DNA from: a virus
Length of the DNA: 27,310 bases
Strand: one strand, 5' to 3'
Virus record (IMG/VR): IMGVR_UViG_3300027907_000041
Location: 1-27,310 of that record
How positions within the stretch are numbered: position 1 is the stretch's first letter; each line of letters opens with the position of its first letter. This document shows positions 9,788 to 26,487 of this stretch, piece by piece. Made by a program: the position numbers and the translations under genes. Below the pieces are notes generated by a model. That model ran no database searches. It was not told where the DNA came from and saw only the letters and a list, made by a program, of their open reading frames with translations.

Positions 9788-9788
9788 G

Positions 9789-9965
9789 TTACTGCTCCAC
9801 TGCCCGTAGGCCCTGCGTCGGCGTGAGTGCCTTCTTCAACTGATCGTTCTCCGCGATGAGGCGGTCCATCTCCTTCTGCGTGTAGTATCGGATCACCTCA
9901 CGCTCGCCGATGATCTTGTAGAGGTCCTCGAGCTGGACCGCGATTCCTTGCTGCTGTTCACTCAT
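9789..9965 (-). CDS. Small 58-residue coiled-coil protein
   Basis: An ATG at 9965 with AGGAGG eight bases upstream opens a 58-codon frame ending in TAA, one base before the next ATG. The protein starts MSEQQQGIAV and continues with a heptad-like helix (LEDLYKIIGEREV, KEMDRLIAENDQLKKAL), likely a short coiled coil. This frame fills the only space between the last fibre gene and the 118-residue gene, and its ribosome site is among the best in the window. Function is unknown. Its place directly after fibre genes would suit a small trimerising or fibre-assembly helper, but that is speculation. Confidence 0.75.
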   Translation of the reverse strand: MSEQQQGIAVQLEDLYKIIGEREVIRYYTQKEMDRLIAENDQLKKALTPTQGLRAVEQ

Positions 9966-9973
9966 CTGTCCTC

Positions 9974-18218: not shown

Positions 18219-18451
18219 AAGTCCTCCACCACTTCGGGAAGGGGATCGATGGGCTGCTCGAGAGGAAGGGTCAACCTCGTCCGCGGCGGGCCAGCACCAG
18301 GCTCATCGACACAGCCCATCGTCTCCGGGCCTCGGCACACAACGAGGCCGTTTTGGACAATCACTTTGCCCCGGGGGTAATCCATGCCGCATCTTCCACA
18401 AGTATACCACTCCTCGCCGAAGACGCGATTCGTCTGCCTTGTGTCCAGCAT
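18215..18451 (-). CDS. Small zinc-ribbon-like protein (78 residues)
   Basis: The ATG at 18451 begins directly after the TAG of the membrane-protein gene, with no spacer, so it is probably coupled to it. Cysteines at 18, 21, 39 and 47 (YTCGRCGM, then VVCRG and MGCVD) form a C-x2-C...C-x7-C set typical of a zinc ribbon or treble clef. The C-terminal 28 residues are Pro-rich and acidic. Small proteins of this shape often lie just before adaptor genes in environmental phage genomes. Its role is unknown; a structural zinc site in an assembly factor is a reasonable guess. The stop overlaps the GTG of the adaptor gene. Confidence 0.75.
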   Translation of the reverse strand: MLDTRQTNRVFGEEWYTCGRCGMDYPRGKVIVQNGLVVCRGPETMGCVDEPGAGPPRTRLTLPLEQPIDPLPEVVEDL

Positions 18452-18637
18452 CTACGTCAACCTGAGGTTGAGTATACCTGTCTGGTTGAGAAACCAGATG
18501 AGGCAGATCAGGATCACGACGACCATGATCACTGTAGCGATGGGATTGGGCACGCCGAACGCTGCGGTCAGGCTCCGCGTTGCCCAGATCAGGACGCAGA
18601 TGACGAGGACGACGGCCAGAATAGTCAGGACCGGCAC
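18452..18637 (-). CDS. Two-helix small membrane protein (holin candidate)
   Basis: A GTG start at 18637 has GGAGGTG six bases upstream. The 61 residues hold two hydrophobic helices, about 3-19 (VLTILAVVLVICVLIWA) and 34-50 (ATVIMVVVILICLIWFL), separated by a short loop with Arg and Pro. This is the shape of class II holins and also of small conserved membrane proteins of unknown function (Thivi_2564-type). No endolysin is visible in the window, so a holin call cannot be supported by a lysis neighbour. The gene lies between capsid and connector genes, an unusual place for lysis genes but a common one for small phage membrane proteins. Confidence 0.75.
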   Translation of the reverse strand: MPVLTILAVVLVICVLIWATRSLTAAFGVPNPIATVIMVVVILICLIWFLNQTGILNLRLT

Positions 18638-18647
18638 TATACACCTC

Positions 18648-18664
18648 CGTGACGGCTGGTCACG
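18648..18664 (-). other. Short hairpin before the membrane-protein gene
   Basis: A perfect 6-bp inverted repeat (cgtgac / gtcacg) with a five-base loop lies 11 bases upstream of the GTG at 18637. It directly abuts a copy of the 13-bp repeated motif. It could limit or time translation of the two-helix protein. No U-tract follows, so it is not a terminator. Confidence 0.4.
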
Positions 18665-18665
18665 T

Positions 18666-18678
18666 TACCCCCCACCAA
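18666..18678. repeat. Copy 1 of the 13-bp motif taccccccaccaa
   Basis: It lies in the 42-base gap between the 92-residue gene and the membrane-protein gene. Its exact match with the 26571 copy extends to 16 bases (gttaccccccaccaag, 18664-18679). Confidence 0.7.
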
Positions 18679-18679
18679 G

Positions 18680-18958
18680 TTAACGGAGAAGGACGAGGAC
18701 TTGGCCCCCTGTGGGCATCACGGTAACGACCATCCCACGGCAGGCGTAGTGGTTGCCTTGAAGGAAGTCCACCTCGTCCACCGTGTTCTTCGTCCGGTAG
18801 TGGAAGATCACGTCTCCCGCTCCGTCCGTAATCGTCAGAGCGTCCCCTGCCACTCCCGCATTCGTCTGCAAGACAACGGAGCGGCAGTGCACTACGGGAT
18901 CATACCGGTCCCCAGTTGCGTTGAAGATGAGTGACCGAGACTTTATCAAGGTTGCCAT
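18680..18958 (-). CDS. Small beta-rich protein (92 residues), probable virion component
   Basis: The ATG at 18958 has AAGGA eight bases upstream, just after the four-hairpin element. The chain alternates strand-like segments (SLIFNATGDRYD, VVLQTNAGVAGDALTITDG, DVIFHYRT, VDFLQGNHYACRGMVVTVM, GGQVLVLL) and has no membrane helix or signal peptide. This is the look of a small beta-sandwich phage structural protein, often found after capsid genes. Function is not known. The long structured leader before it is unlike any other gap here and may control its expression or that of the genes after it. Confidence 0.75.
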   Translation of the reverse strand: MATLIKSRSLIFNATGDRYDPVVHCRSVVLQTNAGVAGDALTITDGAGDVIFHYRTKNTVDEVDFLQGNHYACRGMVVTVMPTGGQVLVLLR

Positions 18959-18973
18959 CTATCATCCTTTCCA

Positions 18974-19142
18974 GCGCTGCCAGCGCGGATTCAGAGGTGG
19001 CTCAAGTAAACTCTTGCCGCCACCGGCTTGCGTGGAGTCGAAACTCCGCCTTTGCGGTCGAGTTCCCACTTCGTGCAAGCCCCGCGAGATACAGGAGTAG
19101 CTTCCACAAGACAGCTTTACGCTGCTCCCTGTCTTGTGGAAG
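18974..19142 (-). ncRNA. Candidate structured RNA element with four consecutive stem-loops
   Basis: The gap of about 197 bases between two genes holds four inverted repeats when read as minus-strand RNA. H1 (19101-19142) is a perfect 14-bp stem, cttccacaagacag / ctgtcttgtggaag, with a 14-base loop. H2 (19025-19081) is closed by ggcttgc / gcaagcc and contains further pairings (gtgg/ccac, ccgc/gcgg). H3 (18996-19024) abuts H2 and has a ggtggc / gccacc stem with an inner caag / cttg stem. H4 (18974-18986) is gcgct-gcc-agcgc just before the ribosome site. Within H2 an alternative ggagt-ttcg-actcc tetraloop hairpin (19034-19047) competes with the longer fold. No U-tract follows any stem. The element could protect upstream capsid mRNA ends, act as an attenuator, or be a separate RNA. 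Confidence 0.5.
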
Positions 19143-19155
19143 CACCCTACTTACC

Positions 19156-19572
19156 TCAGTGAACGAAGCTGCCCAGGCTGTAGATCGTCACCCCGGCCGA
19201 GGTGACCACTGCGCTGAATTGCCGCGTGTTGTTCTGCACCAGGGACATCGTGCCACTGAGCGTTAAACCAGCTGCCGTTCCGAAGTTAATGGTCTCCGCA
19301 GCATCCGCCGTGTTTCGGATACTGAAGTTGAACGACATGCCAGGTTGAGGTGGAACCCCGAGTGCGGCCTGCAACGCTGCAACGATGTCAGCGGCAGGAG
19401 GGAACAAGTCGTTCCTTGACGCCCCGTTCGGGTCCCTGAGGATCAGTCCACCCAGGAGCTGCTGCGCGGTATACGTGACCACCCCTGCCGTCGTGATAGT
19501 CGACGGCTGGGTAAAGGTCATGACACCCGGCGCTTCGGTCGTGACGATCGAGCCGAAGGTTGTTGAACCCAT
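19156..19572 (-). CDS. Beta-rich 138-residue protein following the capsid gene
   Basis: The ATG at 19572 has GGAGG nine bases upstream and follows the capsid stop after three bases. The sequence is low in charge and rich in Thr, Ser, Gly and Ala. It contains TAQQLLGGLILRDPNG, then AALQAALG, and ends with a strand pattern (ETINFGTAAGLTLSG, VQNNTRQFSAVVTSAGVTIYSLG). Proteins with this ending (NNT-x-x-F-x-V-V-T then VTIYSLG) are frequent next to capsid or fibre genes of environmental phages and have no assigned function. A head decoration or fibre role is a reasonable inference from position and beta content. Confidence 0.8.
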   Translation of the reverse strand: MGSTTFGSIVTTEAPGVMTFTQPSTITTAGVVTYTAQQLLGGLILRDPNGASRNDLFPPAADIVAALQAALGVPPQPGMSFNFSIRNTADAAETINFGTAAGLTLSGTMSLVQNNTRQFSAVVTSAGVTIYSLGSFVH

Positions 19573-19575
19573 CGC

Positions 19576-20496
19576 CTAACCTCCGCTCGATCCGTACACT
19601 CCACGCCATTCGCTGAAGCCCCGGCTGTACCTCGAGAAGGTCTTGAACATGGCGTCCCCGGTCAGGAAATCGTCGGCGTTGCCATACTCCGGCCGCGTCC
19701 TCCACCAGAACTTCATGTCGTGACCGCCTCGAGCCTTGCGCTGTCTCTTCGGAGCCACGAGGAACCACTGATCGGGGTCCGTGAAGTAGCGGACCAGCTG
19801 GTAGTTCCTGTCTCCCGACTTGACCACGTTGACCTCGTTGTTCGCCGTGTAGGGCTTGAACTCGGACTCCATGATCTCCCTGGCCACCCACTCGAACGAC
19901 GGGTCGAGCAGCACGGTCGTGGGCTCCACGTTGACCGGCCTGCCCCTGTCATCCACCAGCGTCTTGAAGTGGTCCAGGGCCGCCTGGTACGCGGTGAACG
20001 AGAAGTCCACGTCCACGAGTGGCCGGTTGCCGATGGTGCCACCACCGTCGAGGCGGGGATGTGCCGTGTGGCACAGGGCCAATCCGTCTTGGCCAGCGAA
20101 CGCCGGGTTGAAGGCGTTGTTCAACACGGACCACGCATCGATCTCGATCTTGTACGCGGCGCTCCTCGCAAGCTCCGCGCTCATGTCGTTCATGATGTCG
20201 TAGAGGTCGTCGTCGAACATCTCCCGGGTGATCCGGAAGCCGAGGCCGTAGCTTGAGTGCGTGTAGCGGACGATCGCACCCTTCACGGGGTCGTCAAACG
20301 TGGTCGCGGTGCCTTCCGGCTTTGCGACCATCGATCCGAGCCCCGCCATCTTGAAGTCCTCTTCATACGCCCGCTTGCTGTCCCGGACGTTGAAAATGGG
20401 GACCCACGAGGGAGGAGTCGCTTCCATCTCGTTGAACATGACCTCGTAGAGGCCAGGGGCGAGGAGCTCGGAGAATCCACCTGATGTGACTGCCAT
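19576..20496 (-). CDS. Major capsid protein (306 residues)
   Basis: The ATG at 20496 has AGGAGAAT upstream. Position after scaffold and decoration-like genes and the chain itself identify it. The N-arm contains the P-x-W-x-x-I-F segment (PPSWVPIFNV). Next come a strand region, the helix after FRITREMFDDDLYDIMNDM with a long amphipathic spine-like helix, then the LALCHTAHPRLDGG loop. The C-terminal part has EPTTVLLDP and WFLVAPKRQRK followed by MKFWWRTRPEYG. This resembles the Mu gpT-like major head subunit group of HK97-fold coat proteins. No N-terminal protease-processing delta domain is apparent, which agrees with a separate scaffold candidate two genes upstream of the decoration protein. 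The fold assignment is by pattern only. Confidence 0.85.
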   Translation of the reverse strand: MAVTSGGFSELLAPGLYEVMFNEMEATPPSWVPIFNVRDSKRAYEEDFKMAGLGSMVAKPEGTATTFDDPVKGAIVRYTHSSYGLGFRITREMFDDDLYDIMNDMSAELARSAAYKIEIDAWSVLNNAFNPAFAGQDGLALCHTAHPRLDGGGTIGNRPLVDVDFSFTAYQAALDHFKTLVDDRGRPVNVEPTTVLLDPSFEWVAREIMESEFKPYTANNEVNVVKSGDRNYQLVRYFTDPDQWFLVAPKRQRKARGGHDMKFWWRTRPEYGNADDFLTGDAMFKTFSRYSRGFSEWRGVYGSSGG

Positions 20497-20510: not shown

Positions 20511-21020
20511 CTATGCTCCGGTGTTACCCTGCCACTGGCTGATCTGCCAGTGGAAGAGTACATGTGGCCGAATGTCGGTGAACAGCATCTGGTCTCCGTC
20601 CCAGTACTGCCAGATCACCACGATGTCATCCGTGACGTCCGCTGCGTCGACGTACCAGATTCCCCCGGTCGCGCTCTTCGCGATCCCGTGGGCCATGCCC
20701 CGCTTGGCCAGCGTACCCACTCCAGTACCCTCGGCCGCGCTGGTGTCGAGGTACCCTCGGAAGAGCACCCCTGGAGCACAGAGCTCCACGATCTGTTCCA
20801 CGGCGCCCTCGCCCACCGTGTTCTTCGCGTCCGCCGTCGCTACTCCCATGTACAACGCGGGATCCGCGCCGCACTCGGTGAGCATGCCGTCCGCTCCCAC
20901 GAAGCAGACAGCACCCTTCTTGTAGGTCTCCAGCGCCCCCTCCGGCCATGCGTGGCGGGGGAGTGGAGTCCCGAAGATGGTCTTGACGGCACGCATCGGG
21001 ATTTTCGGTTGCGTTGCCAT
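20511..21020 (-). CDS. Capsid decoration-like protein (169 residues)
   Basis: The ATG at 21020 follows GGAGAG. The chain is beta-rich and Gly-rich, with strand-like pieces ALETYKKGAVCFVGADGML, ALYMGVATADAKNTVGEG, VLFRGYLDTSAAEG and WYVDAADVTDDIVVIWQYW. The pattern of a strand with a. Confidence 0.7.
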   Translation of the reverse strand: MATQPKIPMRAVKTIFGTPLPRHAWPEGALETYKKGAVCFVGADGMLTECGADPALYMGVATADAKNTVGEGAVEQIVELCAPGVLFRGYLDTSAAEGTGVGTLAKRGMAHGIAKSATGGIWYVDAADVTDDIVVIWQYWDGDQMLFTDIRPHVLFHWQISQWQGNTGA

Positions 21021-24535: not shown

Positions 24536-24549
24536 AGAGGAATCGCGGG

Positions 24550-24663
24550 CTAGCGGTCACGCCCGGAACCGTGGCCCTTGTGTCTGATCGCGTACATCGC
24601 TCCCAGGAAGAGGAACACCACTGCGAGGACGATGCAGACGCTAGCGATCTCAAGGAGCGTCAC
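24550..24663 (-). CDS. Tiny single-pass membrane protein (37 residues)
   Basis: A GTG at 24663 overlaps the stop of the 39-residue gene by four bases (GTGA). The 37 residues run MTLLEIASVCIVLAVVFLFL, then GAMYAIRHKGHGSGRDR: one membrane helix (about 5-23) and a basic tail that should face the cytoplasm. There is no Cys lipobox. Together with the previous gene it forms a pair of tiny membrane proteins between terminase and portal. Holin, antiholin or small spanin-like parts are possible but unsupported, since no endolysin is seen. Confidence 0.6.
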   Translation of the reverse strand: MTLLEIASVCIVLAVVFLFLGAMYAIRHKGHGSGRDR

Positions 24664-24779
24664 TCAAACCACCTGCCCCGGTGTCCCGCGGGCCGACGGA
24701 AGCCGAACCAGGGCTTGAAGATCGGGCAGTGGATAACGAATCCCAGCGTGAGCACGAAAACAATACCCCCCACCAACAT
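24660..24779 (-). CDS. Tiny single-pass membrane protein (39 residues)
   Basis: The ATG at 24779 lies one base after the terminase stop (TGACATG). The protein begins MLVGGIVFVLTLGFVI, one short hydrophobic helix, and continues with an aromatic and basic tail (KPWFGFRRPAGHRGRW). The codons for LVGGIV are copy 3 of the repeated 13-bp motif. The ribosome site is weak, but the exact fit between the terminase stop and the next overlapping frame supports a real gene. Role unknown. Confidence 0.55.
   Translation of the reverse strand: MLVGGIVFVLTLGFVIHCPIFKPWFGFRRPAGHRGRWFE
24764..24776. repeat. Copy 3 of the 13-bp motif taccccccaccaa
   Basis: It lies at the start of the 39-residue gene, where the minus strand encodes the residues LVGG. 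Confidence 0.7.
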
Positions 24780-24780
24780 G

Positions 24781-26487
24781 TCAGTAGCCGGTCGTCGCGT
24801 TCCGAGTGGCCGCGCGAGCACGTTCGTTCAACTGGTCACGTCGTGATGCCCCCGTATCACGCACGTCACGGGAGTTGCCTAGGAGCTCGATGCACGCGGC
24901 AACACTGTCCACGAGGTCATTTAGGGGCATCATTGGAAACCCTTTCATCTCCTCTCGCAGGTCCGTGAGGCCGCGTCGGACACAGAGGAAGCGACTTTCA
25001 CAGAAGGGGATGAGCGTCCGGATCCGATTGTCCTTGTCGCCCACGGGAGATTGCTCTTGCACTGCGAAGTGGTACCCCAGTTCCCGCATCGCGTGGTAGA
25101 TGGGGAACTTGAGGAGGCGCATGAACCCCACGTCCTCTACCGCGGCCTTGTGACAGCGCCACCGCTGGTGCATCCCGATAAACTTGGTCACACAGAGCTC
25201 GGGCTTCTTGTGCAGAGCGAACGTGTCCAGCACGAAGATGCGGCCCTTGCGATCCTTTCCCACTACGGCGATGGCGTTACGTGAGTGCTTGCGGATGTCT
25301 TCTGACCTGTTCGCCGGATCCCAGAAGATGACGCGCTTGAGACCATCCATGTCCACTATTTCGCGCGTGCCATCTTCCCTGTCCAACACGATGTGACCCT
25401 CCTGGTCGAAGGTGAACCACAGCACGTCGTTCAGGTTGAACTCGGCGTTCTTAGGGTCCTTGGGGTCGTTCATGTAGAGCATGGAGAACATGAACGAGCC
25501 CTGCTTCGCTTCGATCCTCGCACAGGTATCGGGAGGGAAGTGGCGGGGGAAGTAGTAGTACGTCTTCTCTGGGTCGGGAGCGAAGACCTCCGGATCCATG
25601 TTATACGTCGGTGGCCTGGCTTCCTCCTCCGCGTTCTTGAAGTCCTGCTCCAGCATCTGGCGGGTCCAGTATAGGGGGCGCACCATGATGTCGGTATCCC
25701 GATGCTGGTTGGTCATGATCTCCGAGTAGAGATCATCTACCCCCCACCTAGTCCCAACCATCAGCTCGTAGCCCTCCCGTTCCTCCACGAAGAGGGCCTC
25801 CGCGGTCTTGTAGAACGTCTTCACCTTCTCTCGGACAGCGGGCTGCTCGGAGGACTGCTTGTCTTCGCTGTCGTCCCCAATCTGGATCGTGTAGTGACGG
25901 GAGACGATGTGAGTGGTTATCCCTGCTGCCTCGATGCTGTCCTCTCCGTACATCCCTTCCCTGGGAAAGAGGAGGTTGGTGTCGCTCCACTTGGTCCGAG
26001 TGATGTCGGGAATGATCGAGGGGAAGAGCCACCGCAAGTTCTCGTTTCGCTCCACCTGCTGCTTGATGCTGCGGATCTGCTTCACGGCGTTATCCGCGGC
26101 GAAGCTGTAGAGGAGGATCCTGTGCTCGGGTCCTGGGAGCCCGCAGAACTCGTCTTGGATCTGGACCCAGAGGGGGAAGCTCTTCGACGCGACCGTGGAC
26201 TTGTAGCAGTCACGGGGAACGAGGAGCAGCTTCCGACGCTTCTTGTCCGGAAACTTGGGAGGTACCTGTTGGATGAAGTTACACATCTCCAGGTGAGGTT
26301 GGGGTTCGAACTTGTTCCATCCGAGCACCGCTGTGGTGAAGAAGTACAGGCTGTCCTGGGCCCTCTTTCGCGTAGTCTCGTAGATCTCGTCGACCCTCGA
26401 CTCTGAGTGCATCGTCAAGGGTTCCGAGGGTGCCTGGTTCACGCCGACCAGGCGATCGAGTTGAGCCTGTCTGTCAAGGATGTCCAT
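24781..26487 (-). CDS. terL: Terminase large subunit (568 residues)
   Basis: The DNA-packaging motor. I start at the ATG at 26487; a TTG one codon earlier is less likely, and GGAAAAGG lies upstream. Walker A is VPRDCYKST at 90-98, with the Lys96-Ser97 pair. The Walker B candidate is IQIGDDSED with Asp205/Asp206. The coupling motif MVGTRWGVDDLY is at 243-254. The C-terminal nuclease shows the acidic triad of the RNase H-like fold: Asp390 (VIFWDPAN), Glu451 (AAVEDVGF) and Asp527 (LNDLVDSVA). Length is normal for the family. It would bind the portal, translocate DNA into the head by ATP hydrolysis and cut the concatemer. It is encoded directly after the small subunit with a 3-base gap. Confidence 0.95.
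   Translation of the reverse strand: MDILDRQAQLDRLVGVNQAPSEPLTMHSESRVDEIYETTRKRAQDSLYFFTTAVLGWNKFEPQPHLEMCNFIQQVPPKFPDKKRRKLLLVPRDCYKSTVASKSFPLWVQIQDEFCGLPGPEHRILLYSFAADNAVKQIRSIKQQVERNENLRWLFPSIIPDITRTKWSDTNLLFPREGMYGEDSIEAAGITTHIVSRHYTIQIGDDSEDKQSSEQPAVREKVKTFYKTAEALFVEEREGYELMVGTRWGVDDLYSEIMTNQHRDTDIMVRPLYWTRQMLEQDFKNAEEEARPPTYNMDPEVFAPDPEKTYYYFPRHFPPDTCARIEAKQGSFMFSMLYMNDPKDPKNAEFNLNDVLWFTFDQEGHIVLDREDGTREIVDMDGLKRVIFWDPANRSEDIRKHSRNAIAVVGKDRKGRIFVLDTFALHKKPELCVTKFIGMHQRWRCHKAAVEDVGFMRLLKFPIYHAMRELGYHFAVQEQSPVGDKDNRIRTLIPFCESRFLCVRRGLTDLREEMKGFPMMPLNDLVDSVAACIELLGNSRDVRDTGASRRDQLNERARAATRNATTGY

Follow-up and report, generated by a model that had tools for sequence, protein, structure and literature searches.

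In bacteriophage T7, the attenuating terminator T-phi is found behind gene 10, the phage capsid gene, and the late mRNA carries RNase III processing sites. Phage late mRNAs also have stabilizing 3' hairpins. For bacterial selenoprotein genes, a model of the SECIS hairpin specifies a loop of 3-9 nt, a stem of 4-16 bp, a G in the first two loop positions, a distance of 16-37 nt from the TGA and a minimum free energy (MFE) of at most -7.5 (PMC13188914). The locus compared here comes from an IMG/VR virus record of 27,310 nt, the whole of which constitutes the window. Its genes, which include small and large terminase, portal, capsid and tail genes, lie on the minus strand. A DNA search of phage records returned no close record to the window, a search of bacterial genomes for the host with capsid and terminase alignments gave pattern matches with no confirmed relative, and a search for tRNA genes found none. 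Behind the capsid gene, 197 nt separate the gene at 19156-19572 from the 92-aa gene at 18680-18958, although this is a gap only between ORFs of at least 60 aa. We hold, with middling confidence, that it contains a small late-protein gene and, overlapping and probably masking this gene, a hairpin cluster downstream of the capsid genes that serves as an attenuator or 3' barrier (Table 1).

Table 1. Features of the hairpin locus and its neighbouring genes, in window coordinates
Feature	Position	Strand	Description
Major capsid protein gene	19576-20496	-	phrog_371, E 1e-16
Small virion-module gene	19156-19572	-	Directly upstream of the hairpin element; ends in TGA; C-terminal phrog_673 match, E 2e-24
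Shine-Dalgarno-like site	19149-19156	-	GAGG(U), about 7-8 nt 5' of the GTG; read from the sequence
Small gene, absent from annotation	19002-19145	-	GTG 19143-19145, 47 codons, TGA 19002-19004; product VLPQDREQRKAVLWKLLLYLAGLARSGNSTAKAEFRLHASRWRQEFT
Hairpin 1	19100-19143	-	Perfect 15-bp stem, 14-nt loop; begins in the GTG codon; dG -25.6 kcal/mol, z -6.1
Hairpin 2	19025-19081	-	Bulged, 7-bp closing stem; z -3.6
Alternative GGAGU-UUCG-ACUCC hairpin	19034-19047	-	Within hairpin 2; minus-strand 5'-GGAGUUUCGACUCC-3'
Hairpin 3	18996-19024	-	6+4 bp, spans the TGA; predicted fold
Hairpin 4	18974-18986	-	5 bp, GGC loop, loop 20 nt past the TGA; predicted fold
Open frame past the TGA	18952-19001	-	ATSESALAALERMIDGN; runs into the start of the next gene; resembles the C-terminal tail of the Cys homologs
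92-aa gene	18680-18958	-	Downstream of the hairpins; without family match; gap landmark in relatives

The sequence-only reading had treated the gap as noncoding, which is contradicted by the substitution pattern and homology of the 47-codon gene. The same gap occurs in seven related contigs (capsid 89-99% identical); with the window, they make up three distinct haplotypes. Within the small gene, 12 of the 19 differences between the window and contig L007 fall at codon position 3, and six amino acids change. Eleven of 17 changed codons are synonymous, compared with 4/19 and 3/17 in the other two frames. Amino acid changes this few are improbable under random placement (p = 0.0008 for L007, p = 0.0006 for L002). 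Furthermore, the more distant relative L045 (capsid 75%) carries a homologous ORF at the same locus (MQSALEREKETLYRLLMRLADMYQ...AEFKLHASRFKRICNCPGRR...), with a tblastn E-value of 4e-5 among the fetched loci and none of 2000 shuffles scoring as well. Based on the substitution pattern between haplotypes and the L045 homology, we are nearly certain that the stretch is coding. The L045 ORF is itself similar to small ORFs at the same position in L072 and L087 (0/2000 shuffles for each); the similarity of the window's 47 residues alone to the latter two is below significance. Searches of Pfam, PHROGs, NCBIfam and PDB sequences with the small protein gave only sub-threshold matches, those of wider viral contigs recovered only L045 and L087 themselves, and those of phage records recovered none. 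The L007 counterpart of the Shine-Dalgarno-like site reads GAGGAAG.

Small ORFs are also present in other gaps of the window. One that is absent from the gene list, at 9788-9973 (minus strand, MSEQQQGIAVQLEDLYKIIGEREVIRYYTQKEMDRLIAENDQLKKALTPTQGLRAVEQ), likely encodes a coiled coil. The gap at 18452-18679 (minus strand) holds a hydrophobic reading frame (TILAVVLVICVLIWATRSLTAAFGVPNPIATVIMVVVILICLIWFLNQTGILNLRLT), and the 113-aa ORF at 18303-18644 is probably in the wrong frame. The gap at 24536-24780 (minus strand) contains two adjoining short hydrophobic ORFs, with a VGGIV-coding near-repeat at each gap end.

All four stems proposed for the gap, as well as the UUCG alternative, were found where the sequence-only reading had placed them, and the predicted minus-strand fold contains all four. 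The first stem is perfect as described, but consists of 15 bp rather than 14 (19100-19114 / 19129-19143, enclosing a 14-nt loop). It is the window's sole perfect inverted repeat of at least 14 bp with arms within 80 nt. Hairpin 1 is part of a longer, interrupted helix of 27 pairs (helix 1), and the Shine-Dalgarno-like site of the small gene pairs in the lower part of this helix in the predicted fold. The minus-strand RNA of the gap has an MFE of -96.5 kcal/mol, and none of 200 dinucleotide shuffles is equally stable (z = -6.0). Hairpin 4 alone is no more stable than shuffled sequence (z -0.2 to -0.4). The three 120-nt windows of the gap have z-scores of -3.8 to -4.2, within the top 7 of 454 (scan mean z -0.37, sd 1.26); the gap is among the window's most structured stretches, though not uniquely so. 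Two segments within coding regions, 20821-20940 (z -4.9) and 25681-25800 (z -4.5), out-fold the gap's 120-nt windows.

The small gene was also compared with synonymous permutations that keep both the protein and the codon composition. None of 150 permutations folds as well as the native sequence for the window or L002, and one of 150 does for L007. The same test on the relatives' small ORFs gave 0/150 for L072, 1/150 for L087 and 9/150 for L045, and 39 control segments have a mean z of -0.45 (sd 1.17, minimum -3.1). When codons are drawn instead from phage usage, 1/150 recodings fold as well for the window, 3/150 for L002 and 0/150 for L072, against 27/150 for L007, 29/150 for L087 and 91/150 for L045. 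RNA structure is selected in addition to the protein, but because the excess stability shrinks under the codon-usage null, the claim is strong only for the window, L002 and L072.

Conservation differs from hairpin to hairpin. For helix 1, 95% of cells are paired across haplotypes, and both L007 changes in the stem of hairpin 1 stay paired as G-U on the minus-strand RNA. The inner helix of hairpin 2 is nearly invariant (97% of cells paired, one double change), with 81% of cells paired in the closing stem. The five pairs of hairpin 4 never vary across the three haplotypes; they lie in a block of about 32 nt that is identical in all three and extends as far as the next gene's Shine-Dalgarno-like site. 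Only 77% of cells are paired in hairpin 3, where five pairs depart only by unpaired cells and the structure is broken in both other haplotypes. Hairpins 1, 2 and 4 thus persist in the clade, whereas hairpin 3 (6+4 bp) is not conserved. A search for compensatory changes was negative, with clade covariation no better than shuffled (182/500) and one true double change among only three haplotypes.

The position behind the capsid gene was then surveyed in 500-nt bins over 50 dereplicated relatives, 46 of which have enough sequence. Perfect hairpins of at least 9 bp occur within 500 nt behind the capsid gene in 22/46 relatives, compared with 42/473 other bins (odds ratio 9.4, p = 3e-10). Their sequences look unrelated between lineages. 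At least five T in the first 8 nt after the stem follow 7 of the 42 listed relatives' hairpins (stems of at least 8 bp), and terminator-like U-rich tails are seen behind capsid-downstream hairpins in L019, L067, L078, L084, L088, L051 and L062. In L087 and L045 as well, hairpins lie within the homologous gene. Individual relatives provide further examples. The L072 ORF similar to the small gene of L045 contains three perfect hairpins one after another (12, 10 and 14 bp; L072:4147-4283), the strongest overlap of coding and structure seen. At L093:4361-4395, the gap that follows the next gene past the capsid gene holds an AT-rich, perfect 16-bp hairpin with a loop of 3 nt.

Compensatory changes are seen in the sister phages L050 and L052, whose gap ahead of the downstream gene folds differently, into three helices; this structure shows six double compensatory changes, compared with 0-2 when slid. 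This RNA (L050:4567-4665 and L052:4528-4625, the same phages as L009 and L011) displays an invariant GGGGAAUUAACC loop, and a similar hairpin with GCGUUAACC in its loop occurs in L047 and L054. The three-helix RNA, which is outside the window, is possibly a new RNA motif. A motif shared between the window and the L050, L052, L047 and L054 gaps was considered, and the sequence alignment of those four did not register.

How the hairpins function is a matter of weighing several explanations. The earlier proposal that they act as RNA stands insofar as the synonymous permutations, the G-U pairing and the hotspot point to a structured RNA under RNA-level selection; the proposal of a discrete new phage RNA is not supported, the sequence being that of a small gene. 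High fold stability speaks for a noncoding structured RNA gene or riboswitch with an incidental or decaying ORF. The substitution pattern and homology, however, show a protein under selection, the clade covariation does not exceed shuffled alignments, one hairpin is lost, and Rfam yielded no family at the gathering threshold and only implausible weak matches below it. We consider this explanation extremely unlikely, and a separate RNA gene is not supported. A plain intrinsic (Rho-independent) terminator was rejected for the window. Hairpin 1 has the G+C-rich stem of such an element (15 bp, 55% G+C over the hairpin, dG -25.6 kcal/mol), but, as already noted from the sequence, the U-tract is absent: a terminator scan of the gap found none, and the tail UACUCCUGUAUC (from L002, with the same bases in the window) has 3 U in the 8 nt after the stem. 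The main rival to attenuation or stabilization is RNase III processing, which by analogy with T7 late mRNA would cut the interrupted 27-pair helix and separate capsid from downstream mRNA. The 27 pairs of helix 1, of which 15 are perfect, are broken up by small interruptions, against the roughly two turns of near-continuous duplex that RNase III uses; the pairing of this helix is kept across haplotypes, and long stems without U-tracts recur behind the relatives' capsid genes, such as the 16-bp stem of L093 and the 14-bp stem of L072. Many relatives, however, have perfect stems of only 8-12 bp, which is short for RNase III. We regard processing as unlikely. The hairpins might instead serve mainly to control translation of the small gene, with a masked start that a trans factor or the product itself opens, and have little to do with capsid mRNA. 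The start codon and the Shine-Dalgarno-like site do fall in helix 1, and the homologous gene likewise contains hairpins in L072 (three), L087 and L045. Against this, hairpins occur at the same place in relatives where no copy of the gene was detected, and the L045 structure is no more stable than recodings of the same protein with codons drawn by usage. We hold a mainly translational role to be quite improbable.

The TGA of the small gene raises a different question, namely whether it is recoded as selenocysteine or by readthrough, with hairpin 4 as the stimulatory element and a protein of about 65 aa or more. In alignments, the TGA falls opposite the second Cys of CNCP in L045 and L087; the Cys alignment in L072 varies with the alignment method. 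Because these alignments were made with a C entered at the TGA position of the window-clade sequences, the number of invariant Cys columns in them carries no independent weight. Past the TGA, similarity at fixed offset is seen to L045 (p = 0.003 for the window, 0.0006 for L007) and to L087 (p = 0.07 and 0.003, respectively), which would indicate only that the ancestor was full length. The L007 changes TCT to AGT (Ser-Ser) and ACC to ACG (Thr-Thr) in this region also favour recoding. Hairpin 4 does not vary and falls within what the bacterial SECIS model (PMC13188914) allows for loop, stem and spacing, with a loop of 3, a stem of 5, G first and 20 nt from the TGA. Its perfect stem reaches only -5.4 kcal/mol, however, short of -7.5, and 39-42-nt folds that include the flanks reach -10.8 to -11.6. 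A SECIS-like hairpin at least as good accompanies about 13% of the window's TGA triplets, so that hairpin 4 is not discriminating. The invariant block around it also holds the ribosome site of the next gene, which explains its invariance at least in part. No tRNA-Sec was found on six related contigs, and a literature search found no precedent for a phage selenoprotein. Reassignment of TGA to a sense codon was rejected, since 11 of the 23 listed window genes end in TGA. Given the ordinary TGA stops, the background frequency and unremarkable stability of the hairpin, the negative searches for a tRNA-Sec and a host and the ribosome site in the block, recoding is very doubtful, and decoding as selenocysteine, or by programmed readthrough, with help from the invariant hairpin, which would give a phage selenoprotein with Cys-containing phage relatives, is more doubtful again. 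The TGA/Cys pair makes for a cheap, high-value side test.

We favour a cis-acting role in the late operon, whether partial termination, 3' protection or processing, because of the hairpin hotspot, the U-tailed hairpins in relatives and the compensatory changes in L050 and L052; the choice among these we infer. Attenuation or stabilization combined with start-codon masking appears most likely. One sequence would then do two jobs, encoding a small late protein of 47 aa and forming a cis-acting hairpin cluster in the mRNA behind the capsid genes. The hairpins would impede transcription or terminate part of it, obstruct 3' exonucleases, or do both, and more stable capsid mRNA than downstream mRNA would accumulate. 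With its first bases in the GTG and the ribosome site paired in its lower part, the large stem would be expected to keep translation of the small gene low unless it is opened. The missing U-tract, the scarcity of T-rich tails among the relatives' hairpins (7 of 42), the null clade covariation, the loss of hairpin 3 and the weaker excess stability under the codon-usage null speak against the attenuator reading. More generally, the locus illustrates that what looks like a structured stretch of noncoding DNA may turn out to be an overlooked small gene on which selection for RNA structure is superimposed. In this group of uncultured phages, strong hairpins of unrelated sequence concentrate behind the capsid gene, which offers a testable case of how capsid stoichiometry is set in such phages.

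Among described systems, bacterial selenoprotein genes with SECIS elements (PMC13188914) resemble the locus in having an in-frame TGA aligned with the Cys of homologs, and hairpin 4 resembles a SECIS in the position of its loop, 20 nt downstream of the TGA, and in its leading G. The window hairpin differs in that it attains the required stability only with flanking sequence and is not distinctive, and the small gene differs in belonging to no known redox family and in the absence of a tRNA-Sec from six related contigs. With RNase III sites and stabilizing 3' hairpins the locus shares a long stem between genes of a polycistronic late operon, where cleavage is a candidate only. T7 T-phi differs from the window element, which has no U-tract, consists of several consecutive hairpins and is embedded in a coding sequence. 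What the two have in common is a strong hairpin that transcription meets immediately after the major capsid module, and relatives have U-tailed hairpins at this position. The function of the locus is probably late-operon control of an ordinary kind, in an overlapping arrangement that is unusual.
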